NCBI GenBank assembly: GCA_020426345.1
Contig: JAGQQE010000015.1
Coordinates: 1 to 37,457 of the forward strand
Direction of reading: 5' to 3'
From: Planctomycetaceae bacterium
GTDB lineage: Bacteria; Planctomycetota; Planctomycetia; Planctomycetales; Planctomycetaceae
Length of the DNA: 37,457 bases
Under the pieces are notes generated by a model, which saw only the letters and a list, made by a program, of their open reading frames with translations, was not told the DNA's origin and ran no database searches. The position numbers and the translations under genes were made by a program. Of this stretch, positions 18,207 to 37,457 are shown one piece after another (positions within the stretch are counted from its first letter, which is position 1; every line of letters begins with the position of its first letter).

Positions 18207-19052
18207 TCAGAACAACCCAAACCACTTCTTGCGCCGACAACTGTTGGCTCGATTCACATCCACAACATCATTGGCGCCGACGGCTTCCAGTTTCTCCATG
18301 AGCGCATCCAGGCCTTTGGTCAGCTTGAAATTCGTTTCTTCGTCGTACAACGGAACAATGGTGTAGAAGTGAATATCCCGCTCGTCATCCAGCGACAGCG
18401 AATGAAATTCCTCCGGAACATTCAGGGGCGGCATAACCAGTGCGCATGAGAATCGGGTATTGTCGGCGTACGGTTCGGCTGGATCGCCGTTCGGTATCGT
18501 GTGTCCTGTGCCAAGCCAGGTTTCGTATTCGTGAGGTAGCCTGGCCAGCAGCTTCAGCAATCTGACCGGCCAGTAGTTCCCCTCATCTTCAAAGGCTTTC
18601 TGCGAGATCTTCCATGAACGGGGCAGACAAATCATGAGCTCCGCATACTGAAGATTCAGACATTCGTCAGGAACGGTCATTGGGCGATCGCTCATGCCGC
18701 TGGTAACAAGCGTATGAAACGGACGCTTCTTTGTGGGCTTTACCCAATGGATGTCGATGTGCACCATGTCGCTGATCAGCTCATGGAACACCATATCCAC
18801 CGGTCCCAGAAAACGTTCGATGTGGCCGGAAATGGCTTCGATATTCTGTTCATCTCCGGACACCAGATCCAGGTCCCGGCTCCTTGGTTCGTGCCGAAAA
18901 ATGCGGGTGCCATCGGGAGACGTCACCGGGTCATCCAGCGGAGGAACCTGGAGTATCATCCCGCATTTCTTACACTTCACCCGCTTTCCCGCTCGATCAT
19001 CCGGCACGCGATATCGAGCTTCACATTCATCACACCGCAGAATAATGGTCAT
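18207..19052 (-). CDS. Zinc-ribbon plus Suppressor of fused (SUFU) domain protein
   Basis: 281 residues. N-terminal zinc ribbon with Cys7, Cys10, Cys27 and Cys30 (CDEC ... CKKC). From about 70 to 260 it matches the bacterial SUFU family: VFHELISDMVHIDIHWV, RPFHTLVTSGMSDRPM, LMICLP, GHTIPNGDP and FYTIVPLYDEE. Eukaryotic SUFU is a negative regulator in Hedgehog signalling; in bacteria the role is mostly unknown and some copies serve as immunity proteins next to toxins. Its ATG overlaps the end of the upstream small gene by four bases, so the two are probably translated together. The C-terminus is Lys/Arg-rich (RRKKWFGLF). Confidence 0.88.
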   Translation of the reverse strand: MTIILRCDECEARYRVPDDRAGKRVKCKKCGMILQVPPLDDPVTSPDGTRIFRHEPRSRDLDLVSGDEQNIEAISGHIERFLGPVDMVFHELISDMVHIDIHWVKPTKKRPFHTLVTSGMSDRPMTVPDECLNLQYAELMICLPRSWKISQKAFEDEGNYWPVRLLKLLARLPHEYETWLGTGHTIPNGDPAEPYADNTRFSCALVMPPLNVPEEFHSLSLDDERDIHFYTIVPLYDEETNFKLTKGLDALMEKLEAVGANDVVDVNRANSCRRKKWFGLF

Positions 19053-21210: not shown

Positions 21211-23148
21211 TCAGCGAGCATGGCGGAACAGTTTGTCTCGATAGGAATCTCGCTGCAGCAGCTGCATGCGACCGACGTATTGCTGGCGTTCGGCTGCCTG
21301 TTGAACCCTTCGCAGCTGGGTGGCAAAATCAGCAAAGGTCTCGCCGGACGCGTCGGCTTCCCGCTGAATGGCCGCGGCAAGCCACGGGCCGTGATTTGTT
21401 AAGAGAGTGTCTTCTGCGCTGGCAAATACCTGGGCCGAACCAGGATCGCCCTGACGACCACATCGCCCGATCAGCTGACGATCCATTCGCCCGGCGTTTT
21501 GACATTCGGAGACAATGACATGAAGTCCCCCCTGTCGTTTGACATCGGGATGAAGGCTGATGTCGGTTCCGCGCCCGGCGAGATTGGTCGCAATGGTGAC
21601 AGAGCCGGGCTGACCGGCGTGCGAAACGATGTCTGCTTCGTCTGCAGTTTGCAAACCATTCAGGACCTGGTGTGGTACACGAAGCTCAGCTAACAGCCGG
21701 GAGATCACATCGGTATCGGCAATTGATCGGGTTCCAACCAGAACAGCACGTCCGGCTTTCTGCTTCCGGATGATCTCTTCTGCGATGGCATTCCATCTTG
21801 CCTTGCGGGTGGCGAAGTATCTTGTCGGCATGAGTTGTCTTGCAGATGGGACTCGCAGTGGGATCTCTTCAATCTTCAATCGATAGACTTCTTTTAATTC
21901 CTGCTCGCATCCAATTGCTGTCCCGGTCATCCCGCACAGATTGTTATAAATCCGAAAAAACCGCTGTCGTGTGATCTGAGCCAAAGGAGATTTCTCGGCC
22001 GTGATTTTCAGGCCCTCTTTCGCCTCGATCGCCTGATGCAGGCCATCCTGCCATGATCGATCCTCAAATATTCTTCCGGTTGTTTCGTCGACGATCCGCA
22101 CTTCATCGTCTTCCACCACGTAGTGCACATCGCGCCGAAACAGTAATCGGGCTCGCAGGGCCTGCTGCACGTATTCCGTCCACGGACGAATGAGCACCGG
22201 GACAGGAATCCTGACATCAGCGCTGTGGCACCGCTGAATGCCTTCACCGGTCAGCATCAGAAGTCCTGACGCTGCATCCATCTGGTAGTGCTTTTCGGGC
22301 TCCAGCTGACTCAGCAACTGCATCGCCATTTGATGAGCACTGGCATCCGGTGCGCCATCCTGAGCAGACATGCTGAGCACCAGGGGCGAACCGGCATCAT
22401 CAATCAGAACGCTGTCTGCTTCGTCAACAACGGCATATTCCAGCCCACGCTGCATAGTGAGCCGGCGGCCATCTGCTGGTTCCTGCAGTGCCTGCAGAAG
22501 TCGAGAGCCGGCCGGTCGTCGGCTCTCCTGACGAAGTGTCAGCTGGTCGCGGAGATAATCGAATCCAAATTCGTGGCCGGTTCCGTATGTCACGTCGCAG
22601 TCATAGGCCGGGAATTTCTGAATCGCTTCCACCCGCTCGGGCAGCAGTCCGGCTGTCATGCCAAGTTCTGCCAGGACCGGCGCTGCGAGAGACTGGTCGC
22701 GTTCGGCAAGGTATGTGTTTGGCGTTATCACATGTACGCCACGACCTGCCATGCCAAGATAACCAGACGCAGCGATACCCACAAAGGTCTTGCCCTCGCC
22801 CGTTTGCATCTGCGCTATTCGATTTCGGGATAACGCTGCTACAGCAAGCAGCTGGACGTCATACAGACGAATGTTCTTTGATCGACGCAGCGCTTCACTG
22901 ACCAGAGCGAGTCCGGCAACCAGCATCTCCGGTTCGCTTGTACTTCGCCCGCGAGCCAGTTCACGCCGAATGACCATCACCTCGTCGATTAGCTCATCGC
23001 GGTTCGCTGTCTTCAGCCGTTCGGCCAGGTCACGAATATGCGGGAGTAGCTGTTCGGATGGGATTTCCGTCGACAAAACAGGTGAAGCGTTTCGAAACGA
23101 CTGAGAGACGCTGGATGGACTTCTGGATGTCGAAGCTTCGTTCGGCAT
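21211..23148 (-). CDS. Shortened SecA paralogue (SecA-type DEAD motor ATPase)
   Basis: 645 residues from the ATG at 23146-23148; the frame extends to 23406, but that part overlaps the TolC-like gene and does not look like SecA. SecA motifs in order: Walker A QTGEGKT (115-121), TYGTGHEFGFDYLRD (about 187-201), Walker B VDEADS (241-246; housekeeping SecA usually has DEVDS), a PPXD-like region (about 255-400), GMTGTA, TNLAGRGTDISL, and GRCGRQGDPGS at about 560. Canonical SecA is about 850-950 residues. Here the protein ends about 70 residues after the last helicase motif, in a segment like the start of the helical scaffold, so most of the helical wing/scaffold and the zinc C-tail are absent. It follows the TolC-like gene by 50 bases. 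I infer a specialised accessory export motor. Confidence 0.88.
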   Translation of the reverse strand: MPNEASTSRSPSSVSQSFRNASPVLSTEIPSEQLLPHIRDLAERLKTANRDELIDEVMVIRRELARGRSTSEPEMLVAGLALVSEALRRSKNIRLYDVQLLAVAALSRNRIAQMQTGEGKTFVGIAASGYLGMAGRGVHVITPNTYLAERDQSLAAPVLAELGMTAGLLPERVEAIQKFPAYDCDVTYGTGHEFGFDYLRDQLTLRQESRRPAGSRLLQALQEPADGRRLTMQRGLEYAVVDEADSVLIDDAGSPLVLSMSAQDGAPDASAHQMAMQLLSQLEPEKHYQMDAASGLLMLTGEGIQRCHSADVRIPVPVLIRPWTEYVQQALRARLLFRRDVHYVVEDDEVRIVDETTGRIFEDRSWQDGLHQAIEAKEGLKITAEKSPLAQITRQRFFRIYNNLCGMTGTAIGCEQELKEVYRLKIEEIPLRVPSARQLMPTRYFATRKARWNAIAEEIIRKQKAGRAVLVGTRSIADTDVISRLLAELRVPHQVLNGLQTADEADIVSHAGQPGSVTIATNLAGRGTDISLHPDVKRQGGLHVIVSECQNAGRMDRQLIGRCGRQGDPGSAQVFASAEDTLLTNHGPWLAAAIQREADASGETFADFATQLRRVQQAAERQQYVGRMQLLQRDSYRDKLFRHAR

Positions 23149-23198
23149 AGGAATCAACAGCTCGGACAACAGCCCGCAAACAGACGGAAGACGGTTAG

Positions 23199-26100
23199 TT
23201 ATGGCCCGGTCAGCGAATGTCCGCCCGATGATTGCAACCTGCCGGATGAAGGAATCCGCTGGCCATTCATTACGGGAGGGCTGCTGGAAGGCTGAACCGC
23301 CGGTGAGTATCTGATGGCAGGTGATGGTGCGACAACAGAATTTGCATTGCCCGGGTGATTCACAGGCACTGAGCCTTGCCCCCCCGAACTGTTGACAGGA
23401 GCCCACGTCGTCTGCGAATAGGCAAGGCTTTGGTTTGATCGAGCATCCGTGGGCATCGTTGCAGGATCAGCAAAGGTCGTGGCAGTGATGGATGCTGGTA
23501 CGACATTGGTTCCACCGTCGACACGCCCATGCATTGTTTCTTCAATGCGCTGGGCCATCCACTCGGAATGCTGCGACAGAGTTTCCGGGCTGTCATGACG
23601 CGACCGAAGCAGGACGCCGGTGACCTGGCGAAGTTTGATAATTGACAATGCGTATTTGACCTGTGCGTCAACAAACGTCGATTCTTCGTCGGCCAGACGT
23701 TCGAAGCCATCCAGAAGGTCCTCCAGCAGCAGGATCGCGGAATCTTCGGCATCGGGGAGGACTTCGAATCGATCCTTCAGATAGTTGGTTTCATTCTGCG
23801 CTGCGACCATCGCCTGATAACGGCCCTGCATTTCGCGGTACGCAGTTTCCACTTCGCGATTGGCAACTTCGACTTCTGTCAAAGATGCTTCAACGGTTGC
23901 TCGAAAGACGTTAATCGAGCGTTGCAGTTCCCACTTTCGCTGTTCGTATCGAGCCCGCGCGGCGCGATTTCCCAACGGAACCTCGAATTCAAATCCAACC
24001 GTGTACCCCGGTTGCCCGCGGGTGAACTGATTGGCAATCGAAGTGTCGATACGATCCTTCGCCTCCAGCCCGGCAACGTAAGTTTTCACCAGGAAGTCGA
24101 GCTTCGGAAGCATCTCATTCCGACTTACGCCCAGGCGCACACCGGAAGCTCTCATTTGACGTATCGCGCGACTGATATCGGGCCGATTGATCAGGGCTGT
24201 GTTCAGCGAATCGTGAAGTACCGGAGCAACGGGAATCATCGCCGGCATCTCCGTCGGCATGAACTCAACCGGCCCCTGATTCAGCATGGCCGGGTCATTG
24301 ACCAGCAGCCGCAATTGCGATTCTGTATTTCTGATCGCGGTCACAGCCCGCTGCATGCGAGCTTCTGCTCTGGCTACTGCTGCGCGAGCACGCAGAATCT
24401 GTCGGGGAACAGTATCAACCTGATCTCGTCCCTCCAGTGTTTGAAGCACAGAGCGTGCGGATTCGACCAGTTTCTGACGCTGATAGAATTCCGCCCGGCT
24501 TCGGTAGAGCTGCCAGTATGCTTCCGTGACCTGGTACAGATGGTCCTGTAGTTCTGCCAGAACTTCGTCGCTGGATGAATTGGTGGTGATTCGAGCCAGA
24601 ACAATCTGGCTCTGGCTGTAAATGCTACCCGCACCATTCCAGACAGGTTGTCGAAAGCTAAGCTCCAGACGCGACGTCGACTGCGGATTCGGGACCAGAT
24701 ACGTCGAGTTGTTGTATTGGTGCCCGACTCGCTGACTGACTTCCAGTTCACCGCCGCTGGACGTCTTCTTCCGAAAGCCGCCAATGGTGCTGAATTTGTT
24801 ATCCTTGAACCGATCCGACAAATCTCCGGTGGTGAGCCGATTGCCGACAGGGTCGTTCAGATCGTCGTACGTTGTTTCGAGGAAAGTGCGCCAGTCGAAT
24901 TGGGCTTCTTCCTGCCAGACGATTCTTTGCTGCACTTCCGGTTCTGCCTGAAGTGCCAGAATCTGGGGAGAATACAGCATGGCCTGCCGGACCAGTCCGG
25001 CTGCATCTACTGTCATGGGTGTGGGCGCGATCCCCATGTGATTTCGAACCAGCGAATCCCACCACGGACGAAATTCGATGGGCATGTGCGAGCTGGACTG
25101 AGGTGTCAGGATCGTGGATTCCAGTCCCATTCGCGCCGCGCGATCCTGGTAAGAATGCAACCATCGCGGTGCATCGGATTCGACGGTGGCTCGAAAACCG
25201 GACTGACCGGGATAGTGTCCACTTCCCTGATAGCCTGGCGATGGAACGCCTGGCCGAGATTGCTGACTGAAGTTCGGGTCAATGGAATCAGGCTGTCCTG
25301 TCGGTGGCTGCCGGGAATACGATGGCCCGGGCGAATCACCAACGGGGCCTTTCCCGATGGGAACAGGGCCGTTCCGAACAGGATCGGATGTGCCTTCCGG
25401 AGTGGGATGGACCTGGTGAGGCAGCGGTATATCAGCCGTGTCAGATGATAAACCTCTCGGCAGTGAAGGCGGTTGAAAGACTGGAGCCGGTGGCACAACG
25501 GGCGGCGTTGGGTTGCCGGGGACTGACGTTTCAGGAATCGCCGAGGGTGGCTGAAGTGCACTGGTTCCAAAGACGGATTGAGCGATGCGGGATGCGTCCG
25601 AAAGGGGGGCACCGGTCACAGGATTCACCGAACCGGTCGTCTGAGGGTTCGAGGGAGACACAGTTTGCTGCAACTGTGGAAGTGCCTGTAGCCGTGGATC
25701 TGCCAGTTCTGACGACACTGAAGGAAAAGGCTGTTCCACGAAATGAGCGGGTTGCTGCTCAGGAAGGATACCGGCTGTGGGTGGTCCCGGATTGGCAGCA
25801 ATATCGGAGGACAACGATCCGTTTGCCAAAGTTTGTGACGCGCTGTTTGCCAGAGTTTGTGACGCCTCTCCCGCGGACTGAATAAGTTGCTCAGCAGAAT
25901 GTTCGGCCATCATACCGGGTTGAGAAACGATGAGCACACCCGAACGAGATGGAGCCCGACGGATGGCCGGGCTGCGGAGAGATACAGACGAAACAGGAGT
26001 ATTTGAAGTTCTGGTTGCTGGTCCTGCCGTTACTGATCCTGCCATTCTGCCGGCAGCAGGCTTGTCCGTGTACGGGTGAGCCGAACTCAAACCTGGAGCA

Positions 26101-26639
26101 TTTGTTGATTCTGCGGGATTGTTCTCTTTCGAAGACATCTCAGCCGCGATCTGACGAAACATGGCTGTCATTCGCTTTTCCAGGTCGGGATCCATTCCAC
26201 CGCCTTTGGAACTGCTCTGGGCACTTGTTTTCGATTCTGAGGGGTCTGTCATGGGAACGATCCGGGGGAACCCTCCTGGAGGGGCGACCCGGGGCGCTCT
26301 CAATGTGATGTTCGTGGGCTGACCTTCCCTGATCTGAACAGCGGCCAGATCTGACGACGGCAAGAACAGGGTTCCAGCAACCAGCACCGCACCCAGAGCG
26401 ATCGCGGTAGAACGCCTTCGTCGTGTGGAGGTAATTCTCTGAGTCGAGTCCTGTGATACAGCCGCTTGACAGAGTGAACCAGAAACCCGCCGTGGACCAA
26501 CCAGTTCGCGCAGCCAGACAGAGAGTCGTTGACGACCATCTGCTTGGACACCATGACCTTCAACCGAGTGCTGTGTCGCAGGTAAGCCCTGAGAACAGCC
26601 TTCCGTTGAGGATGATTTTGGCGAAGGAAAGTGGTTCAT
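23199..26639 (-). CDS. TolC-family outer-membrane efflux/secretion protein with long Pro/Ser-rich N-terminal arm
   Basis: 1146 residues, about twice the usual TolC length. An extended N-terminus (1-72) precedes RRRR and a hydrophobic core at about 78-96 (IALGAVLVAGTLFL), then SSDLAA before VQI, probably a signal peptide with a long n-region. Residues about 110-520 are Pro/Ser/Gly/Gln-rich and look disordered, with a short repeat SQTLANSASQTLANGS. From about 535 to 1010 comes the outer-membrane factor domain: paired long helices with LVRQAMLYSPQILALQAE, ITTNSSSDEVLAELQDHLYQ, INRPDISRAIRQMRASGVRLGVSRNEMLPKLDF, VGFEFEVPLGNRAARARYEQ, and VEASLTEVEVANREVETAYR. The C-terminal 130 residues are again low complexity. 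TolC proteins form the outer-membrane exit of tripartite pumps and type I secretion systems. No adaptor or ABC exporter is in the window. Divergent from the giant surface protein. Confidence 0.86.
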   Translation of the reverse strand: MNHFPSPKSSSTEGCSQGLPATQHSVEGHGVQADGRQRLSVWLRELVGPRRVSGSLCQAAVSQDSTQRITSTRRRRSTAIALGAVLVAGTLFLPSSDLAAVQIREGQPTNITLRAPRVAPPGGFPRIVPMTDPSESKTSAQSSSKGGGMDPDLEKRMTAMFRQIAAEMSSKENNPAESTNAPGLSSAHPYTDKPAAGRMAGSVTAGPATRTSNTPVSSVSLRSPAIRRAPSRSGVLIVSQPGMMAEHSAEQLIQSAGEASQTLANSASQTLANGSLSSDIAANPGPPTAGILPEQQPAHFVEQPFPSVSSELADPRLQALPQLQQTVSPSNPQTTGSVNPVTGAPLSDASRIAQSVFGTSALQPPSAIPETSVPGNPTPPVVPPAPVFQPPSLPRGLSSDTADIPLPHQVHPTPEGTSDPVRNGPVPIGKGPVGDSPGPSYSRQPPTGQPDSIDPNFSQQSRPGVPSPGYQGSGHYPGQSGFRATVESDAPRWLHSYQDRAARMGLESTILTPQSSSHMPIEFRPWWDSLVRNHMGIAPTPMTVDAAGLVRQAMLYSPQILALQAEPEVQQRIVWQEEAQFDWRTFLETTYDDLNDPVGNRLTTGDLSDRFKDNKFSTIGGFRKKTSSGGELEVSQRVGHQYNNSTYLVPNPQSTSRLELSFRQPVWNGAGSIYSQSQIVLARITTNSSSDEVLAELQDHLYQVTEAYWQLYRSRAEFYQRQKLVESARSVLQTLEGRDQVDTVPRQILRARAAVARAEARMQRAVTAIRNTESQLRLLVNDPAMLNQGPVEFMPTEMPAMIPVAPVLHDSLNTALINRPDISRAIRQMRASGVRLGVSRNEMLPKLDFLVKTYVAGLEAKDRIDTSIANQFTRGQPGYTVGFEFEVPLGNRAARARYEQRKWELQRSINVFRATVEASLTEVEVANREVETAYREMQGRYQAMVAAQNETNYLKDRFEVLPDAEDSAILLLEDLLDGFERLADEESTFVDAQVKYALSIIKLRQVTGVLLRSRHDSPETLSQHSEWMAQRIEETMHGRVDGGTNVVPASITATTFADPATMPTDARSNQSLAYSQTTWAPVNSSGGQGSVPVNHPGNANSVVAPSPAIRYSPAVQPSSSPPVMNGQRIPSSGRLQSSGGHSLTGP
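25804..25864 (-). repeat. Short in-frame tandem repeat inside the TolC-like gene
   Basis: The word TTTGCCAAAGTTTGTGACGC is followed 21-24 bases later by TTTGCCAGAGTTTGTGACGC, differing at one base. On the coding strand it encodes two copies of ASQTLAN in the disordered arm. It is a small coding duplication, not a CRISPR unit. Confidence 0.6.
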
Positions 26640-27078: not shown

Positions 27079-30000
27079 GTGCGAAACGTGGGGTTGGGAT
27101 CCCGTGACCTTCAAAAACACCTCAAGCTTCTGCTGTCAGAAGCGTCCCATCGATTGCGCGCAAACCAGCGTGCCGGGCTGTCTGAACCAGCACCCAGAAT
27201 CAGCCATCTTGAAGAACGATTGTTGATGAGCGTGACGCCTCTGGCGGTCGTTGCGGATGTCGCGTCGATTGAATCCACTGGCAACAGCCAATCCGTTGGG
27301 GTGGAAACGGCTTTTGGCTTCTCCGGAGACGATTTTTCGGTCAGTAATCACACCACAGCGGTTCAGGACGACGGCCTGGCGTCTGCCGCTGATGAACAGA
27401 TCAATGGCGGAGAGTTCCATCGCGAGCCCGGTGAGAACCTGCCACTGGATTCGATCCCGCACGATTCGATCCCACGGGGGCCCGAACTGATCGTCATTGA
27501 CTATCGCGTTCAGGATGCGGACGGCATTCTGGCGAACCTCCTGAACACGGATCGAGAATTTCGCCTGCTTCGACTGGAGAGTCATTCTGACGGTTTACGT
27601 CAAATTACGGAGAAGCTCCAGACGCTGGGGGATGTGTCAGCCATTCACTTGCTGACCCACGGAACTGACGCCGAGATCTCACTCGGAGCAACGGTGCTCA
27701 ACAGTCGCTCGCTGCCGCAGCATACCGCCGAATTGCTGGCATGGCAGCACAGCCTGACAAGCGGCGCAGACTTGCTGCTGTATGGCTGTGACGTTGCCGA
27801 ATCACCAGAGGGTCGTGACTTTATCGATCAGCTGCGATTGTTAACCGGGGCAGACATCGCTGCCAGTACCGATGATACCGGTCAACAGTCGCTTGGTGGC
27901 GATTGGCACCTCGAATATCAACAGGGTTATATCCAAACCGTCTCGCCATTTTCGGCAGGAATCGATGGGTGGTCAGAGCTGCTTGCATTCGCAACCTACC
28001 GTGACGAATTCAACGCCGTCACTTTTGACGGTTCAGACGGAAGTCAAACCTGGGCAGCCGATCCCTGGGTGGAAATTGGTGAATCGGACGGTGCTGGCGC
28101 AGGGCTCGTCCGAGTCACAAATTTTCTTGGCAGAGATGCCCTGAACGTCAAGAAGGATGGGAATGGGATTCAGCGGCAATTTGATCTGACCGGTGCCGAC
28201 TCCGCGATTCTGTCGTTCGATTATGCCCAGATAGGTATCCAGTCCGGGCAGAGCGTCGATTTGCAGGTTTCGGAAGACGGAACCAGCTGGACAACCCTGC
28301 GACAGTTCAACAGCATCACCGACGATTCGGCTTACGTATTCGCGAGCTTTGATATCGGTAGCTTCATCAGCGGTAGTACTCAAATTCGTTTCATCGGTGG
28401 TGGCGGTGGGACACCGGAACTGTACATCGACAATGTACAAATTGCCTACACGACGGCCACCGTGACAAATTTCGTGGAACTCGGCGTTACAACAACGCCG
28501 GGTATCGTCGAGGAGACAAGTGGACAGAATCGTGGTGGGGCACAGTCGATCGCCGTGGCTCCAGACGGCAGCTACATCGTGGTCTGGACGGAGGTGAAAC
28601 CGTCCGGCAATTTGTCGGATGTGTTTGCCCAGCGTTTCGATGCCACGGGGTTGAAGACGGGAGCGAAAATCCGGGTCAACGTGATGACAGCCGACGAGCA
28701 ACAGTGGGCATCAGCGGCCGTCGACGGCACGGGGCGTTTTGTCGTCACATGGACAAGCAATAATCAGGACGGAAGTGGCAGCGGAGTCTACCTGAGACGT
28801 TTCAACAGTGATGGGACTGCCATCGATACGGTTGATGTGCTGGTGAATTCAGGAGCAACGACCAGTGATCAGTCAAATTCGTCCATTGCGGTAAATTCGC
28901 AGGGCGATATCGTCGTTGCCTATCAGGAGACAAATGGTGGAAGCAGCACCGTCTTTGTTAAACAATTCAGTATGCAGGCCGCCGCGGGTATCAGCCAGCT
29001 GCCGTCAGCATCCATTGCCGTCGATTCCGGCACCAATCGCATCAATCCATCGGTCGACATCAACAGCAACGGTGATTTCGTTGTTGCGTGGCAGAAGGGC
29101 AACAGGCCCTATCTGCAGCGATTTTTTTCCGATGGAACGGTTCATGGCAGTGATTTGAACGTAAATCCGCTGAACCTGCTTGGAGCCCTTGAACAGTATC
29201 CTGTGGTTGCCCTTCACGATAGTGGCGAGGTTAGTCTCGCCTATCGTTCTGAAATCTCCGGCTTCAACGGAATCTGGAGCAAGCGTTACCACGCAGATGG
29301 ATCAGCCTATGGATTGGCAATCAAAGTAGGTGACGGTTCTGCCAACGATACAGAGCCTTCGATCAGCAAGGACGCTTCGGGAAACATCGTGATTGTCTGG
29401 CAGGGTGACGATGCCGACAGCAGCGGCATTTATGCCCGCCAGTACGACTCGAATCACAGTGCAGTTGGTGACGCCTTCCTGCTGAATACCGCATCAGAAA
29501 TCGGAATTCAGACAGGGGCATCTGTCGGCATGCAGGGTCTGAGCAGTTTCGTAGCGGTCTGGAGTGGTACGGGGGTCAGCGATGCGAATGGCATTTTCGC
29601 CAGTCAGTTTTCCGCCGCTCCGTTACAGCAATCTGCGACGTTGACGCCTGCCGGCGACACCTACATCGACAAGTCGAATGCGGCAGCCAATTATGGAGCT
29701 TCGACCAGTCTGATGGTCGATCATTCGGGCGGCAGCATTGGCGATACGAGGTCCCTCTTACAATTTGATCTCAGTGGCATTCCAACAGGTGCGACAATCA
29801 CGGGGGCCACGTTAAAGCTCAATGCAACGTCGATCACGGGTACATTCAATGTCGACGTATATGAACTAACTCAGGCCTGGTCTGAAGGCAACGGTATTGG
29901 TGCGACGGACGCAGCGAACTGGGATGACCGCCAGCCAGGGGTCGGTTGGGGAACGGCGGGTGGAAGCTTCAATCCAACTCCTGTCTCGACGCTTGGCGCT

Positions 30001-33000
30001 GGAACGACCGGGCTGCATTCGTGGGACATAACCTCACTTGTTCAGGCGTGGTATAACGGATCTTCAGTCAATAACGGTGTCATTATTGGCAGCACAAATA
30101 ACGGGGGTAACACGGTCACGTATGACAGTAGCGAAGGAACAACCCCACCAGAGCTGGAAATCCTTTACGCAGTGCCAAATGCCGTTCCAGTCGCAAACGC
30201 CGGTGGACCATACACGATCGACGAAGGACAGTCGTTGTCGCTGGATGCGAGTGGTTCCTCTGATCCCCATGGCGGCTCGCTCATCTATTCCTGGGATCTG
30301 GACGATGATGGTGTCTATGGTGAGTCTGGTGAACTTTCCGGTGTGAATCCAGTGGTTTCATGGGCGACTCTGCAATCACTGGGCGTCGGTACCGCTGGTT
30401 CCCATGTGATCCGCCTGAAGGTGGATAACGGGGTTGATGTCAGTTACGCCTCGACGCTGCTGACAATTCAATCTGAAGTTCCGACAGCGAACCCGGATTC
30501 TGTTTCCACAACCATGAGCGCGCCCGTGACCATCACGGCTCTGGCAAATGATATCGATCCCTGGAACGCCGGGCTGACGATTCTGGATTTCAGCGCTCCG
30601 GCCAATGGGACAGTCCTCAGCAATTCGGATGGCACCTTACAGTATTCTCCGGACACAGCGTTCAGCGGAACGGATACGTTCGATTACGTTGTTACCGACA
30701 AGAGAGACGGTCTCACCCATTTCTGGAATCTGGACGGAGGAGCTCTTGATGCCGTCGGGTCGGCAGACGGCGTCATCAATGGCGGGGCTCAATCGATTGA
30801 CGGTGCATTCGGGAGTGGATTGCTGTTCGATGAAATTGACGACTTCGTTGAGATTCCGGACATCACCTACAGCGATGAGTTTACTGTTTCATTCAAATTC
30901 CGGATTGATAACAACGACGGTGGTGATTACCTCTACCTGTACAGCCACGGCGATGCGGATTTCTCCAACAGTCTGAATGTGATGGTCGGCGAATCGGGTC
31001 GCCCCGGTTTTGCCGGCATCATGAAAACGGTGTTCGGCGATTCGGACGACCCCTATGAGCTCAATGCCTTAAACTTTGATGCCAGTGCGGTCATCGGCGA
31101 CGGTCAATGGCACACGTATGCTCTGACGGTCGACGCCATTCAGGGGGCATGGGTCTTTCTTGACGGTACTCTCCAAGCAGCTAACGCCTCCGCTGGCGGT
31201 GATGCATTCGATCCGACCGGATCGCTGTTCCTCGGTGCCCGCGAAGATCTTGAAGCGGCAAGATTCTTCGGTGGAGGCCTGGATTCAGTCGCCATATTCA
31301 ATCGATCATTGACGCCAACGGAAGTGGTCTCTCTGAATTCTGATGCGATAGCCACTCGTGCGACCTCAAGTGCAACGATTACCGTGTCGGTGGTCAATCA
31401 GGACCCGACCGCTGTGATCGCTCCTGTTTCCGCCATCAATGAAGGCCAGTCCGTTTTGCTGGATGGAACAGGTTCCAGCGATCCGGACGGAAGCCCGCTC
31501 ACTTATGAATGGGACATCAATTACAACGGGACATTCAATGCGGACGCGACGGGTTCTACGTCCACCATCGACTGGACTGCGTTGAACACTCTCGGTGTGA
31601 CGAACGATGGAACTTACCAGGTCGCTTTGCGAGTGTACGATGGCACCAGCTATTCGGCTGTCGTGCAGCGTTCAATGACAATCAACAATGTCGTTCCGTT
31701 AATGACTTCGACCGGCTCACTCTCCGTTTCGGAAGGTTCGACCACGGTCACTACAATCTCTGCCACCGACGTTAACGATACGATTTCGTATTCGATCTCC
31801 GGCGGTGCAGATGCTGCGCTGTTCTCGATCGATTCCGTTACCGGAGGATTGTCATTCAATCTCGCTCCGGACTTTGAAGGGCCGACGGACAACGGCCTGG
31901 ACAATGTCTACGATGTGCAGGTGCAGGCATCAGATGGGGACGGTGGCATCGCAACGCAGGATCTGAATGTCACTGTACTGGATGCAAATGACAATCCACC
32001 GGTCATTGCCCCCGGTCAGGTATTTACGGTTTCCGAGTCTGTTGCGCCGGGGACTGTTGTTGGGATTCCTACTGCATCGGATCCGGATACTGCAACGACG
32101 TTCAGCAGCTGGACCATTCTGAGCGGTAACACAGGCGGCGCGTTTGTCATCAATTCTGCCACCGGGGAACTCACGACTGCAACTGCCCTGGACTATGAAA
32201 CTCTGTCAGTCTATCAGCTGCAGATCGCAGTCAGTGACGGAACCAACACTTCCAGTCCTGAGACGATCACAATTCATCTGACCGACGCGGGGGAGAATGC
32301 ACCGGTCGCAGTGGACGACAGCTATACCGTTGATGAAGGCTCGTCCCTGACGATATTGGCCATCGGCGACTGGCACAACGTCAACTGGAACTACAGGCAA
32401 CGCCTTGCGTTCAGCGACTCGTTCCTGGCCAGCTCGCTCACCAGCCAGCCAGTGCTTGTAAAACTGCACGCGTCAGCGGCGGATGCGATCGGTATTGATT
32501 ACTCAAAGACCCAGTCTGCCGGAGAAGATCTGCGGTTCTACGATTCGGCTGGGAATCTCTTGAACCATGAAATCGATAAGTGGGACGAATCGGGTTACTC
32601 CTATGTTTGGGTGAACGTTCCGGCGATTGACCCGGCCAATCCCGGCGACTTTATCTGGATGTACTACGACAACCCTGATGCACCAGATGGCCAGAATGCA
32701 ACGGGGGTCTGGGGAAGTGAAGACAAAGCCATCCACCATCTACAGATCCTGCCATCAGACTCAACGGCAAACGGGAACAACCTCGCGCACTCTTCGATTT
32801 ATATCGCTCCCGGTATAGTTGCGGATGCAGCGGGATTCAACGGGTCAAGCAGTATCGGCGTCATCTCCGATGACGCTTCCCTGCAGAACATCTTTTCGGG
32901 GGGCGGTACTGTTTCTGCCTGGATCAACCCAGCGACCTGGGGAGATGCCGGAGAAGGTCGGATTCTTGACAAGGCGTCGTCGTTACTGAACCCGAATGGT

Positions 33001-36000
33001 AGTGGATGGAATCTGAAACTCGATCAGACCAACGGAAGTCTGCGGTTCAGCTATGGCTTCTCTGGTGGTGCCGGGGAGTGGAGAACTGCGACGAATTCCA
33101 TTCAACTGGGCCAGTGGCAGCAAGTAGCCGTTGTCTATGACAACACGAATGCCTCGAACACACCAGATATCTATATCAATGGTGTTCAACAAACGCTGAC
33201 TGCCATCCGAACTCCTTCAGGTACGCCAACGTCAGATGCCGGCCTGGATCTGTACGTCGGTGACCGATTTAATCAGACCGCAACCTATAGCGGAGTTGTC
33301 GACGAACTTCGAATCAGCAGGCAGGGGGCAACTGCCGAGCAAATCCTTGCCGACTATCGGACGGTGACAGGTGCGCTGGTTGTTTCGGCCGAAGAGTTGA
33401 GTGGTCCCGGTGGACTGATGCAGAATGACAGTGATGCGGATGGGGAAAACATGACAGTAACTGTCGTGAATGGCCCCGCCCACGCAGCGAATTTTCAGTG
33501 GCTGGCGAACGGATCCTTTCTTTACCAGCACGACGGAAGCGCGACAACTTCGGATTCGTTTACGTATTACGTGACTGACGCAGGTGGGGCAACTTCAGCG
33601 ATCACGACCGTCAACATCACCATCAATGGTATTAATGACGCGCCAACGGACATTTCCCTTTCAAATTCGACAGTCGTCGAAGGCACCGCTGGTGCGATTG
33701 TGGGCACACTGTCGACAACCGACCCCGATCCCTCAGATTCACATACATACTCGGTCGACGATACTCGCTTTGAGGTGGTCGGAGGTCAGTTGAAACTCAA
33801 AGCCGGGCAGGGACTGGACTTTGAAACAGAACCGTCTGTCCTGCTCAGCATTACATCGACGGATCCCGGAGGTCTGCAGATCTCGCGGAACTTCACTATT
33901 ACGGTCGACGACACGAACGACAACGCGCCGGTTATCACACCGGGTCAGTTGTTCGCGATCAGCGAGTCGGCGAGCAATGGGGCGATTGTTGGAACGGTTA
34001 CAGCCACAGACTCAGATGCGTCAACCACATTCAGTAACTGGACGATCGTTGGTGGAAATTCGGACGGAGTGTTTACAGTCAACAGTTCGACGGGACAGAT
34101 CACAATTGCTGATCGGACGAATTTGGATTTTGAAGCAACGACAAGCTACTTACTGACACTTACGGTCAGCGATGGCATAAGTACGTCGGCCAGTCAGTCA
34201 GTTATCGTCAATGTGACGAATGCAAACGACAATCTTCCGGTCGTTACTCCTGGTCAGACCTTCACGATTTCCGAATCGGCCATCGTCGGACAAACGATCG
34301 GCTTTGTCTCGGCGACGGATGCCGACGGGACGGCAACGTTTAGTAACTGGATGATAACCGGGGGAGATCCTGATGGAATCTTCGCGCTGAATGCCTCGAC
34401 AGGTAAGCTTGAGGTCGCTGATCCCTCAAGGCTGGACTATGAAGTGACCACCAGCTTTTCTCTGCTGATTACAGTATCAGATGGTACAAACACCTCCGCA
34501 GCACAAAGCGTTACGGTCAACGTCACCGACGTCAACGATGTCGCGCCGGTCATAGATTCCGGACAGAGTTTTTCTGTCAGCGAAGTCACTTCTGCAGGAG
34601 CCAGTGTGGGATTTGTCACGGCTTCTGATCCGGATAGCTCTACACTCATGGCATGGGCCATCACCGGAGGAAATAGTGGAAATGCGTTTGCAATAGATGC
34701 CTCTACTGGCGAGATTTCCGTAAATGATCCTGCCGCCTTCGACTACGAAACCAATACCAGTTTTTCGCTGCTAATTACGGTTTCCGACGGCACAAACACT
34801 TCTGCAGCACAAGACGTAACAGTCAGTCTCCTGAACGCGAACGACAATGCCCCAGTGATTTATGCTGCAACTTTCAATGTCAACGAAGCCGCCGGCTCAG
34901 GGACTCTTGTGGGCATTGGCACGGCAAGCGATGCGGATGGCCCGACAACATACACCAACTGGCAGATCGTTTCTGGCAACACGAGTGCCGTCTTTGACAT
35001 GAATTCATCGACCGGTGCAATCACGGTCAACAATTCAACGGCTCTGGATTTTGAGACAACGCCTGCCTACACCCTTGTGATTACCGTAAGCGACGGGGTG
35101 AATACGTCCCTGCAGCAATCCATCACGGTCAATGTCAGCAACGCGAACGAAGCTCCCACTGCGGTGGCCGGCCCGGATCAGACGATTTCTGAAGGACAGT
35201 CTGTTTCTCTCAGCGGAGTGGCCTCCAGTGATGTCGACGGCGACGCCCTGGTTTACAGTTGGGATCTCAACGCCGATGGCATCTTTACGGACGCCATCGG
35301 CGTTAATCCGACGCTCAGCTGGGCTCAGTTGTCTGCTCTGGGTATCAACGATGACGGGACTTACCTGATAACATTGAGGGTGACAGATCCGTCCGGGTCT
35401 TCGGCGGTTGATGACCTTGTGTTGCAAGTCAACAATACGGAACCGTCAATAACTCTCACGGCCAGCGCACAAGCGGCAACCGGATCTCCATGGACCCTGC
35501 ACGTCGCCTCTTTTGATCCGGGGTCTGATACTGTTTCTCAATGGTTGATTGACTGGGGTGATGGTCAAACTGCCAACGCTTCCGCCACGTCAGGCGGCCT
35601 GCTGCATACGTTTAGCAGCCCGGGCAACTTCCTCGTTACTGTGACACCCGTCGACGAAGACGGAACTCATACTGCGTCGGCCGCAACAATCTCTGTCGAA
35701 GTGCTGGCCACAGCAGTGCCGGCAAACGATACCTGGGTTGTGGATGCCACCACGGGATTGAGTTTGACAGATCCAGCATTGGGAGTGACGGCTAATGATT
35801 CGGGTGTGTCTGGCTCAGCATCGGTTCAGCTCATAGACGGGCCTTCTCACGCCAGCTCATTTCGGCTGAACGCTGACGGAACGTTCTCTTATCAGGTGGC
35901 AGCTGGTTACACCGGTGTTGATTCATTTCGCTATCGCATCATTGATGGAGTTGCTGTCAGCGAGCCCGCGGTGGTGACGCTGAGTATCAACCAACCGCCA

Positions 36001-37457
36001 GCTCTGTCTTTCTTGCAGGACGTTTCTTCCATTGACGAAGGGACTCTTCTTGCCGCTCCACTTCGCATTGGTCAGTTCATCGTTAATGACGACGGTACCG
36101 GAACAAATGTTGTCTCACTGACGGGCACTGACTCGGCCCTGTTTTCAATCGATTCGAGTCACGTGCTTTACCTGAATGCTGGAATTGTCCCCAGCTTCAA
36201 TCTCACGTCACAGTTGCTTGTGACTGGAAACGTTGATGACAGCTCGATTGCCGGATCACCGGATGCTCGTATCAGCGTCATGGTAAGTATTTCCAACATC
36301 AATCATCAGCCCATTGCCACGCCGATTAGTAACGTGACTGTCGACGAGGATTCCGGACGGCAGACTACGCAGACGTCAGGAGCTTTCTCCGACCCGGACA
36401 GAGAAGATACGCTTCAGTACGCGGTGCAGGTTGTTAGTAACCCGGACAATGCCATTCGAAGCGTGTCGATTGACTCTGCGACCGGAGAAGTTGGCTGGTT
36501 CACCAGTGACAATGCCAATGGCGATGCTGTGGTACGGGTGACAGCCATGGATCCTTCCGGGGCTGTGGCCAGCAGTCAGTTCACGATTCATGTGACACCG
36601 ATCGACGACGCGCCGATTGCGCGAAGCGTTGTTCGCAATGTGTGGTCGGGAGTGAGCGTGTTCGTGTCGCCGGTTCCAGCATTACATGCGGCCGTGGATG
36701 TGGACGGTCAGTTGGTTTCTTTGCAGATTTTGCAGGGCCCGGAACACGGCAGTCTGTCCATCGCGCCGGATGGGACACTGATTTATGTCTCAGCGTCGGA
36801 CTTTGTCGGTATTGATCAGGTACTGTTTGTTTCGACGGATGGAACACTCGACAGCGACGTCGCACAATTGAGATTCTGGGTTCGGGCATCGCCACTTCTG
36901 ATTCCGTCTAATTCCGGTTCATCTTTGTCCGAGTCCCTGTCGACCAATTCCACTCCGGGGGCAGAAACAGTCAATTCACCGGTTTCGGATTCCGCTTCGG
37001 CCACATCCGGAACGTCATCGAACACCGGTCTGGCGCAGACTCCATCCGGTACACAGATTCAACAATTGGGCAATGGCCGGGGCAACTCATCTGACGATGA
37101 CGATGCGGCACTGCCAGCATTTGCGATTCTTGTTCGACAGGCGGAAGACATTGAATTTGATTTATCGAGCGCGGCCGAGATTATCGCCAATCTGGATAAT
37201 GTGGTCGATGCGGGATCTCTGCGCGGGCTGGAATCCACGATTTCTGTCCGCGACATTCGATCAGACTGGACGGACAGCGTCGAATTCAATCGCGTTGAGG
37301 ATGGTGTTCACGTCGACTTCTTCAACCTGATGAAGCTGACGACACATTCGACGTCTGTTTCACAGCAGCTGGAGCAGGATCTTAGCAGCGATTCGGCATT
37401 TGTGGGGGCAATTTCGGGCACAGTCCAGGTAGTCGCCTCGGGGCTGTCTGTCGGCTA
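27079..37457 (+). CDS. Giant modular extracellular/surface protein (DUF4347, propeller-like, DNRLRE, PKD, LamG, cadherin modules), 3' end beyond window
   Basis: A single open frame of about 3459 codons with no stop before the window ends; it starts after a TAG at 27067-27069. Possible starts are GTG 27079 (used), GTG 27088 and ATG 27226; none has a clear ribosome site. Residues 44-54 read LEERLLMSVTP, the planctomycete extracellular N-terminal signature. Then in order: DUF4347 (about 135-290; IHLLTHGTDAE, LLLYGCDVAES), a jelly-roll-like domain (about 300-455), seven FVVxW repeats, DNRLRE, PKD, an Ig-like module holding a LamG, PKD, two cadherin repeats, an Ig-like module holding DUF2341 and LamG, five more cadherin-type repeats, two PKD-like, more Ig/cadherin-like modules, a Ser/Thr-rich linker, and a terminal region ending SGLSVGY. 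In related proteins I recall, this last motif begins a transmembrane helix. DxNDN-type cadherin loops imply Ca binding. Probable adhesin or matrix protein; function inferred. Confidence 0.88.
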   Translation, partial: MRNVGLGSRDLQKHLKLLLSEASHRLRANQRAGLSEPAPRISHLEERLLMSVTPLAVVADVASIESTGNSQSVGVETAFGFSGDDFSVSNHTTAVQDDGLASAADEQINGGEFHREPGENLPLDSIPHDSIPRGPELIVIDYRVQDADGILANLLNTDREFRLLRLESHSDGLRQITEKLQTLGDVSAIHLLTHGTDAEISLGATVLNSRSLPQHTAELLAWQHSLTSGADLLLYGCDVAESPEGRDFIDQLRLLTGADIAASTDDTGQQSLGGDWHLEYQQGYIQTVSPFSAGIDGWSELLAFATYRDEFNAVTFDGSDGSQTWAADPWVEIGESDGAGAGLVRVTNFLGRDALNVKKDGNGIQRQFDLTGADSAILSFDYAQIGIQSGQSVDLQVSEDGTSWTTLRQFNSITDDSAYVFASFDIGSFISGSTQIRFIGGGGGTPELYIDNVQIAYTTATVTNFVELGVTTTPGIVEETSGQNRGGAQSIAVAPDGSYIVVWTEVKPSGNLSDVFAQRFDATGLKTGAKIRVNVMTADEQQWASAAVDGTGRFVVTWTSNNQDGSGSGVYLRRFNSDGTAIDTVDVLVNSGATTSDQSNSSIAVNSQGDIVVAYQETNGGSSTVFVKQFSMQAAAGISQLPSASIAVDSGTNRINPSVDINSNGDFVVAWQKGNRPYLQRFFSDGTVHGSDLNVNPLNLLGALEQYPVVALHDSGEVSLAYRSEISGFNGIWSKRYHADGSAYGLAIKVGDGSANDTEPSISKDASGNIVIVWQGDDADSSGIYARQYDSNHSAVGDAFLLNTASEIGIQTGASVGMQGLSSFVAVWSGTGVSDANGIFASQFSAAPLQQSATLTPAGDTYIDKSNAAANYGASTSLMVDHSGGSIGDTRSLLQFDLSGIPTGATITGATLKLNATSITGTFNVDVYELTQAWSEGNGIGATDAANWDDRQPGVGWGTAGGSFNPTPVSTLGAGTTGLHSWDITSLVQAWYNGSSVNNGVIIGSTNNGGNTVTYDSSEGTTPPELEILYAVPNAVPVANAGGPYTIDEGQSLSLDASGSSDPHGGSLIYSWDLDDDGVYGESGELSGVNPVVSWATLQSLGVGTAGSHVIRLKVDNGVDVSYASTLLTIQSEVPTANPDSVSTTMSAPVTITALANDIDPWNAGLTILDFSAPANGTVLSNSDGTLQYSPDTAFSGTDTFDYVVTDKRDGLTHFWNLDGGALDAVGSADGVINGGAQSIDGAFGSGLLFDEIDDFVEIPDITYSDEFTVSFKFRIDNNDGGDYLYLYSHGDADFSNSLNVMVGESGRPGFAGIMKTVFGDSDDPYELNALNFDASAVIGDGQWHTYALTVDAIQGAWVFLDGTLQAANASAGGDAFDPTGSLFLGAREDLEAARFFGGGLDSVAIFNRSLTPTEVVSLNSDAIATRATSSATITVSVVNQDPTAVIAPVSAINEGQSVLLDGTGSSDPDGSPLTYEWDINYNGTFNADATGSTSTIDWTALNTLGVTNDGTYQVALRVYDGTSYSAVVQRSMTINNVVPLMTSTGSLSVSEGSTTVTTISATDVNDTISYSISGGADAALFSIDSVTGGLSFNLAPDFEGPTDNGLDNVYDVQVQASDGDGGIATQDLNVTVLDANDNPPVIAPGQVFTVSESVAPGTVVGIPTASDPDTATTFSSWTILSGNTGGAFVINSATGELTTATALDYETLSVYQLQIAVSDGTNTSSPETITIHLTDAGENAPVAVDDSYTVDEGSSLTILAIGDWHNVNWNYRQRLAFSDSFLASSLTSQPVLVKLHASAADAIGIDYSKTQSAGEDLRFYDSAGNLLNHEIDKWDESGYSYVWVNVPAIDPANPGDFIWMYYDNPDAPDGQNATGVWGSEDKAIHHLQILPSDSTANGNNLAHSSIYIAPGIVADAAGFNGSSSIGVISDDASLQNIFSGGGTVSAWINPATWGDAGEGRILDKASSLLNPNGSGWNLKLDQTNGSLRFSYGFSGGAGEWRTATNSIQLGQWQQVAVVYDNTNASNTPDIYINGVQQTLTAIRTPSGTPTSDAGLDLYVGDRFNQTATYSGVVDELRISRQGATAEQILADYRTVTGALVVSAEELSGPGGLMQNDSDADGENMTVTVVNGPAHAANFQWLANGSFLYQHDGSATTSDSFTYYVTDAGGATSAITTVNITINGINDAPTDISLSNSTVVEGTAGAIVGTLSTTDPDPSDSHTYSVDDTRFEVVGGQLKLKAGQGLDFETEPSVLLSITSTDPGGLQISRNFTITVDDTNDNAPVITPGQLFAISESASNGAIVGTVTATDSDASTTFSNWTIVGGNSDGVFTVNSSTGQITIADRTNLDFEATTSYLLTLTVSDGISTSASQSVIVNVTNANDNLPVVTPGQTFTISESAIVGQTIGFVSATDADGTATFSNWMITGGDPDGIFALNASTGKLEVADPSRLDYEVTTSFSLLITVSDGTNTSAAQSVTVNVTDVNDVAPVIDSGQSFSVSEVTSAGASVGFVTASDPDSSTLMAWAITGGNSGNAFAIDASTGEISVNDPAAFDYETNTSFSLLITVSDGTNTSAAQDVTVSLLNANDNAPVIYAATFNVNEAAGSGTLVGIGTASDADGPTTYTNWQIVSGNTSAVFDMNSSTGAITVNNSTALDFETTPAYTLVITVSDGVNTSLQQSITVNVSNANEAPTAVAGPDQTISEGQSVSLSGVASSDVDGDALVYSWDLNADGIFTDAIGVNPTLSWAQLSALGINDDGTYLITLRVTDPSGSSAVDDLVLQVNNTEPSITLTASAQAATGSPWTLHVASFDPGSDTVSQWLIDWGDGQTANASATSGGLLHTFSSPGNFLVTVTPVDEDGTHTASAATISVEVLATAVPANDTWVVDATTGLSLTDPALGVTANDSGVSGSASVQLIDGPSHASSFRLNADGTFSYQVAAGYTGVDSFRYRIIDGVAVSEPAVVTLSINQPPALSFLQDVSSIDEGTLLAAPLRIGQFIVNDDGTGTNVVSLTGTDSALFSIDSSHVLYLNAGIVPSFNLTSQLLVTGNVDDSSIAGSPDARISVMVSISNINHQPIATPISNVTVDEDSGRQTTQTSGAFSDPDREDTLQYAVQVVSNPDNAIRSVSIDSATGEVGWFTSDNANGDAVVRVTAMDPSGAVASSQFTIHVTPIDDAPIARSVVRNVWSGVSVFVSPVPALHAAVDVDGQLVSLQILQGPEHGSLSIAPDGTLIYVSASDFVGIDQVLFVSTDGTLDSDVAQLRFWVRASPLLIPSNSGSSLSESLSTNSTPGAETVNSPVSDSASATSGTSSNTGLAQTPSGTQIQQLGNGRGNSSDDDDAALPAFAILVRQAEDIEFDLSSAAEIIANLDNVVDAGSLRGLESTISVRDIRSDWTDSVEFNRVEDGVHVDFFNLMKLTTHSTSVSQQLEQDLSSDSAFVGAISGTVQVVASGLSVG
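28546..29613 (+). repeat. Seven FVVxW-type repeats in the giant protein (propeller-like)
   Basis: Seven successive units of about 45-60 residues share S-I/V-A-V-D-x-x-G-x-F/I-V-V-x-W ... G-V/I-Y-x-R-x-F-x-x-D-G. Examples are YIVVWTE/VFAQRFDATG, RFVVTWTSN/GVYLRRFNSDG, DFVVAWQKG/YLQRFFSDG and NIVIVWQGD/GIYARQYDSN. Seven blades would close a beta-propeller; the fold is inferred from count and spacing. Confidence 0.6.
29632..30174 (+). other. DNRLRE domain within the giant protein
   Basis: The encoded segment begins LTPAGDTYIDKSNAAANYGAS and continues RSLLQFDLSGIP, ATLKLNATS, YELTQAWSEGN, WDITSLVQAWYNG and GVIIGSTNNGG, which is the DNRLRE pattern found in bacterial surface and extracellular proteins. 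Confidence 0.75.
30700..31368 (+). other. LamG-like domain nested inside an Ig-like (Big_9) module
   Basis: An Ig-like module runs PTANPDSVST ... FSGTDTFDYVVTD up to 30699. A LamG/concanavalin-like domain then begins (HFWNLDGGALDAVGSADG, GSGLLFDEIDDFVEIPD, DGQWHTYALTVD, GLDSVAIFNRSLTPTEV). After about 31368 the Ig-like module finishes with SATITVSVVNQDPT. The join points are approximate. Confidence 0.65.
32362..33402 (+). other. DUF2341 plus LamG cassette nested inside a second Ig-like module
   Basis: The module opens APVAVDDSYTVDEGSSLTIL and is interrupted by a DUF2341-like part (WNYRQRLAFSDS, QPVLVKLHAS, DFIWMYYDNPDAPDG) and a LamG part (GGTVSAWINPATWGD, GQWQQVAVVYDN, VDELRISRQGATAEQI). 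From about 33403 it resumes with GGLMQNDSDADGENMTVTVV and ends ITTVNITINGINDAP. Confidence 0.65.
33931..35157 (+). repeat. Four tandem cadherin-type repeats of 101-103 residues
   Basis: Units start at 33931, 34240, 34549 and 34855 and are 309, 309, 306 and 303 bases long. Each has V-I-x-x-G-Q-x-F-x-I-S-E-S, a T-F-S-N-W core, N-A-S-T-G-x-I/L, L-D-Y/F-E and ITVSDGTNTS, ending NANDNxP. Units 2 and 3 share SFSLLITVSDGTNTSAAQ. A fifth similar unit lies earlier at 32002-32304. Confidence 0.85.

Follow-up and report, generated by a model that had tools for sequence, protein, structure and literature searches.

Rod units that are split around a binding domain have been described for the RTX (repeats-in-toxin) adhesins FrhA, AhLap and MpIBP. 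As described for these proteins, an immunoglobulin (Ig)-like rod unit is interrupted by a binding domain that has adjacent ends and is projected from the rod; the chain exits after the first strand, and the occupants are, for example, carbohydrate-binding modules, RTX beta-rolls or PA14 (PMC12077191, PMC10865825). Here we describe a comparable arrangement in a giant protein of a Planctomycetaceae bacterium, encoded on contig JAGQQE010000015.1 (assembly GCA_020426345.1). The entire contig (G000:C66; 37,457 nt) was analysed and is referred to below as the window. The gene occupies its final 10.4 kb as an open frame of 3459 codons (27079..37455, + strand), which contains two interrupted modules and is open at the contig end. 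As in these RTX adhesins, an Ig-like unit is split in sequence around an occupant. Unlike in them, the hosts are Big_9 modules, the exits are the F-G and the B-C loop, and the occupants are a LamG in one case and DUF2341 plus LamG in the other.

No Pfam match to HemolysinCabind, the family representing RTX repeats, was obtained for the window protein (E ≤1; its last part lies beyond the contig) or for the homologous proteins L073, L074 and L075 (E ≤0.01; L075 is without its first part). Among the literature matches listed, judged by titles and abstract openings, there was no report of a LamG nested in an Ig-like module. As far as these searches show, split-domain display is known in kind; what is new is its occupant, its exit loops and its recurrence. 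Both inserts of the window protein are very probably nested domains within split Ig-like hosts, with the rod continuous and a lectin-like domain held sideways on two adjacent linkers.

Architecture of the two split modules

The preliminary description of the window held that two Big_9 modules of the giant protein are opened by a LamG, once together with DUF2341, and then completed. This could be confirmed with contiguous profile halves, and the coordinates agree within a few residues. All parts lie on the + strand. Module 1 begins with a left part at 30475..30711 (strands A-F), followed by insert 1 at 30712..31359 and by the closing strand G at 31360..31395. Module 2 has a short left part at 32299..32355 (strands A and B when mapped onto module 1), insert 2 at 32356..33414 and a right part at 33415..33624, which comprises the LxxND turn and strands C-G. 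Both fragments match Big_9 (PF17963) in two stretches each, with 63.0 and 45.5 bits (cut-off 23.6), and both inserts match LamG (PF13385), with 62.2 and 69.2 bits (cut-off 27.6). Insert 2 also matches DUF2341 (PF10102; 45.8 bits, cut-off 23.4, positions 2-64/84). In fragment 1 the best Big_9 stretch (positions 3-80/89) precedes Laminin_G_3 (30838-31326), while fragment 2 has DUF2341 (32521-32709), then Laminin_G_3 (32875-33345) and then the best Big_9 stretch (positions 20-89).

Whether the flanking pieces belong together can be read from a host profile grown from the uninterrupted Big_9 module of the window (35716..35997, + strand). The profile used for the test comprises 386 intact modules from loci L098-L164 and has 105 states; insert-bearing proteins were excluded, and the scoring permits one long insertion in the host. 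For module 1 the score rose from 105.2 bits (left part) to 125.7 bits (both parts; +20.5), and for module 2 from 71.6 bits (right part) to 99.2 bits (both parts; +27.5). The two halves meet at states 84|86 in module 1 and 25|27 in module 2, so that at either junction one state is absent and there is zero overlap. When the 34-residue flank was shuffled, the score of the minor part was reached in 1/1000 cases for module 1 and in 0/1000 for module 2; with flank and insert shuffled together it was reached in 0/300 for both. When placed on the strands of module 1, insert 1 interrupts the F-G loop; insert 2 interrupts the B-C loop immediately before the LxxND turn. Comparison with uninterrupted modules, as the preliminary description had suggested, thus located the insertion point in both modules, and these points differ in the host fold as it had said.

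Structure prediction, also suggested there, gave a confident one-chain AlphaFold2 model of module 1 (mean predicted local distance difference test score, pLDDT, 89.8; predicted template modelling score, pTM, 0.88). The input alignment had 14 rows, namely 12 insert-bearing modules and two LamG-only rows, with zero intact hosts. Six host strands precede the LamG (residues 8-13, 18-20, 35-39, 45-49, 55-59 and 65-74), and one strand after it (297-307) completes the host set.

The best structural match of insert 1 is domain 4 of AbnA, a glycoside hydrolase family 43 (GH43) arabinanase (5ho2; Z 22.3, root-mean-square deviation 2.6, 192 residues, 20% identity); the title of the related entry 5hon names a complex with arabino-oligosaccharide. 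Unlike insert 1, AbnA domain 4 is part of a secreted enzyme and is not nested in a rod. At Z ~19-21 the matches are jelly-roll domains from clostridial toxins or from partner proteins of these toxins, so that only the shared fold is informative. The best 50 structural matches of module 1 all lie over the LamG, with the host part unrepresented among them, an absence that carries no weight. A search of the module 1 profile against sequences of solved structures likewise gave 19 matches, all on the LamG part, and the corresponding search with module 2 gave zero.

Filled and empty modules in related proteins

A LamG at the same F-G place as insert 1 (type A) was found in homologues from two genomes that share the genus of the window genome (L073/L091 in G001 and L074/L086 in G002), in a homologue from a different genus of the family (L075/L085 in G008), and in a second protein of the own genome (L076), where the closing strand is weak. 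The subfamily of LamG 1 is present in 13/80 loci returned by a scan of genome contigs, in metagenome-assembled genomes (MAGs) labelled Planctomycetota, Nitrospirota and Pseudomonadota (labels that may err). Three homologous proteins of the family, and proteins of other phyla, have the same place filled; judged by these sequences, insert 1 is therefore old and not a recent gain of the window protein. Counterparts of insert 2 at the same B-C place (type B) occur in L075, L087, L079 and L080, with L081 and the contig-cut pair L077/L078 added by reading. On viral contigs there were two loci for module 1, with the host part matched, and one for module 2, a free-standing DUF2341 plus LamG (L167:3932-4939).

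The relatives also served as a broader check of the profile. For the 13 type-A modules the expected flank was the best place in all except L076_1, and the shuffled-flank rate was ≤2/1000 in 10 (exceptions L073_1, L076_1 and L096_1). Five of six type-B modules gave 0/1000; L081_2 fails. An earlier profile of 82 states, with which the left part of module 2 was reached in 13/1000 shuffles of the whole upstream stretch and in 0/1000 of the head alone, was superseded by the 105-state profile; it had placed the split unexpectedly in L076_1, L079_2, L079_3, L081_2 and L073_3, and its type-B control was weak. The 105-state profile still fails on L076_1 and L081_2.

Two natural comparisons of filled and empty modules are available. 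The first concerns L091 and L087, which share a homologous module, the module upstream of it and a downstream cadherin; DUF2341 plus LamG is present only in L087. The empty site of L091 may be ancestral or may result from a loss, with which the row order of the type-B clade is compatible. The second is a repeat array in L094, in which one of ten related modules carries a LamG in its last hairpin. The left part of this filled module is 53-70% identical to the nine other copies, the copies flanking it (3116-3218 and 3549-3654) are both intact, and its closing piece retains the ending and linker of the intact neighbouring copies. In a host-module tree of 27 rows and 82 columns, used for the L094 cluster only, this host groups with the repeat copies of its own protein.

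These comparisons bear on the closing strand of module 1, which might instead be part of the LamG cassette or of the PKD module that follows. It is short, and a PKD_4 match lies directly after it. We regard such an origin as extremely unlikely, since the closing piece in L094 has kept the ending and linker of intact copies and since L095 and L097, two free-standing members of the LamG 1 subfamily without a host, are by reading without such a strand. L095 and L097 and the DUF2341 plus LamG of L204 and L205 are of the same families as the window inserts and differ from them in lying, by reading, outside Ig-like modules.

Several observations weigh against a common fold of the flanking pieces. 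The model of module 1 provides strand order and confidence scores, not strand pairing, and that of module 2, built from seven rows (three full-length, four insert-only), is poor (pLDDT 55.7, pTM 0.49). The closing part of module 1 has only ~12 residues and the minor piece of module 2 ~19. The minor part is weak in L073_1 (54/1000), L076_1 (153/1000) and L096_1 (116/1000), and in L081_2, where it was reached in 49/1000 shuffles, another place fits better. When the type-B relatives were scored with the 82-state profile, 149-1000/1000 shuffles of the whole upstream stretch equalled their left parts. The LamGs could accordingly be imagined to lie between modules, flanked by truncated or degenerate modules or by linkers that form no joint fold; the shortness of the minor pieces, the poor model of module 2 and the absence of the minor piece from the expected place in L076_1 and L081_2 would all fit. 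This arrangement is nevertheless unlikely in our judgement: in both modules the pieces are complementary at single-state precision, the model of module 1 contains the closing strand, and intact counterparts with the same neighbours are known. We therefore read the two inserts as insertions into one host module each, because of the profile contiguity, the module 1 model and the two filled/empty comparisons. For module 1 the split-domain arrangement is supported by profile and model, and for module 2 by profile and a homologous empty site.

Two further kinds of insertion were seen. In one, a LamG follows the GVLAND turn of another Big_9 module at host states 36-41 (L073/L091 aa 1598-1949, L087 aa 1578-1927 and L088 aa 1602-1951), and these LamGs form a separate clade (100/100). 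In the other, seen in a planctomycete (L079 aa 1857-2195) and in a Nitrospirales MAG (L093 aa 1834-2168), strands A and B are separated by a LamG, and these LamGs again form one clade (100/100); the exact junction of these A-B cases (L079_3 and L093_3) is uncertain with both profiles. Successive strands of Ig folds alternate in direction, and if this holds here the B-C and F-G loops would lie at the same pole.

Independence and frequency of the inserts

The preliminary description took the two different insertion points as a sign of independent events. Beyond position, independence is indicated by the separate clades of the two LamGs. In a tree of 84 LamG domains, LamG 1 of the window groups with the remaining type-A domains and two free copies in a clade of 15 rows (99/94), and LamG 2 belongs to a 4-row type-B clade (100/99). 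Free LamGs stand between these clades, and the deep branches are weakly supported. The approximately unbiased (AU) test rejected types A and B, free A copies included, as one clade (p 0.0205), a group that, like the others tested, was picked after the tree was known. The 13 inserted type-A rows alone were also rejected as one clade (p 0.006), because free proteobacterial copies nest among them.

Both nested LamGs could still descend from one event, with one copy duplicated or moved within the protein. They are of the same domain family and sit in the same protein, the deep branches leave room for such an origin, and a single clade made up of the 27 inserted-type rows, a set that takes in the free A copies, was not rejected (p 0.059), which counts against independence. 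A common event is very unlikely in view of the different host loops, the presence of DUF2341 in one insert only, the separate supported clades and the AU rejection of types A and B as one clade. The separate clades, the free proteobacterial copies nested in type A and the grouping of the L094 host with its own repeat copies together support at least two insertion events for the window protein, and type A itself probably involved more than one, as far as can be judged from sequence relationships.

The frequency of split hosts was surveyed in a non-random sample, which had been assembled by searching with these modules. After removal of 17 domains near the end of an open reading frame, of duplicates and of short matches, 93 LamG domains were scored, and a host was called split at a total of ≥60 bits with a minor part of ≥12. 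By this rule 22/93 LamG domains lie inside a split host, with junctions at states 20-27 (7 rows), 36-41 (3) and 80-88 (12). The totals are bimodal, with 29 domains at ≥82 bits and 64 at ≤51. The total alone is not decisive, because 7 of the 29 high-scoring domains fail the 12-bit rule.

The own genome has 25 LamG stretches above cut-off and a single DUF2341, that in insert 2. Among its scorable LamG domains only the two of the window pass the split-host rule; one on contig C169 reaches 96.7 bits in total with only 9.4 in the closing part. Another giant protein of this genome, L084 (G000:C140), contains seven LamG stretches, several of which alternate by reading with PKD-like modules, and zero of these stretches pass the rule. 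Of 392 genomes from the phylum, at least 5 contain close relatives of LamG 1 (E ≤1e-20) and at least 4 contain those of insert 2 (E ≤1e-15), the own genome included in both counts. By reading, no split Big_9 surrounds the five relatives of LamG 1 in other genomes or the two DUF2341 matches in G314 and G383.

Predicted display, anchoring and export

In the proposed arrangement the chain would form part of the Big_9 sandwich and exit at a loop; the LamG, once preceded by DUF2341, would then fold, and the chain would re-enter and finish the sandwich. The occupant would be tethered by two adjacent linkers and directed away from the rod. The rod would be preserved because every host sandwich is still completed, and the inserts may thus project from it. 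Given the LamG fold and the precedent of the RTX adhesins, the LamGs are putative binders of glycans or other surface ligands, and the giant protein would be a surface adhesin.

Along its length the protein matches DUF4347, DNRLRE, PKD, cadherin, Big_9/tandem-95, DUF2341 and two Laminin_G_3 stretches (Pfam and NCBIfam), with DUF4347 in the N-terminal part (Pfam). The motif LEERLLMS lies near the N-terminus (window 27079-27300), and LEERLLMS or LEDRxLMS precedes DUF4347 in L073, L074, L078 and L079; it is a possible sorting element. At the other end, the frame stops (37430-37455) where a hydrophobic segment, GLSVGYxxWxxRGGxLL..., is conserved close to the C-terminus of L073, L074, L075 and L080; this segment has no Pfam match in L073 and might serve as an anchor. 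Two candidates for export of the giant protein, an outer-membrane efflux (OEP) protein and a protein that is SecA-like, are encoded by divergent neighbours of its gene (21211-26639, - strand). A bacterial SUFU-domain protein (171 bits) is encoded further upstream at 18207-19052 (- strand). In two relatives of the same genus, the gene next after the giant one encodes a hybrid histidine kinase with an Hpt domain (L073:9043-11664 and L074:2978-5710).

Taken together, the data suggest repeated entry of lectin-like domains into the rod, at different loops, with the rod unit still being completed. More tentatively, and with the balance of probability somewhat against it, a few LamG lineages might be roaming occupants that enter and leave a small number of loops (A-B, B-C and F-G), mostly at one pole, of different hosts in Planctomycetota, Nitrospirota and Pseudomonadota. 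If so, the rod would serve generally as a frame on which exchangeable binding heads can dock.

The split-domain display principle of the RTX adhesins is hereby extended to giant proteins without matched RTX repeats, to LamG occupants and to other phyla. The natural filled/empty pair, together with the repeat array in which one copy is filled, makes domain insertion into a rod directly testable. Finally, contiguous halves of a host profile around an occupant provide a sequence criterion for likely binding heads in very large and poorly annotated surface proteins.

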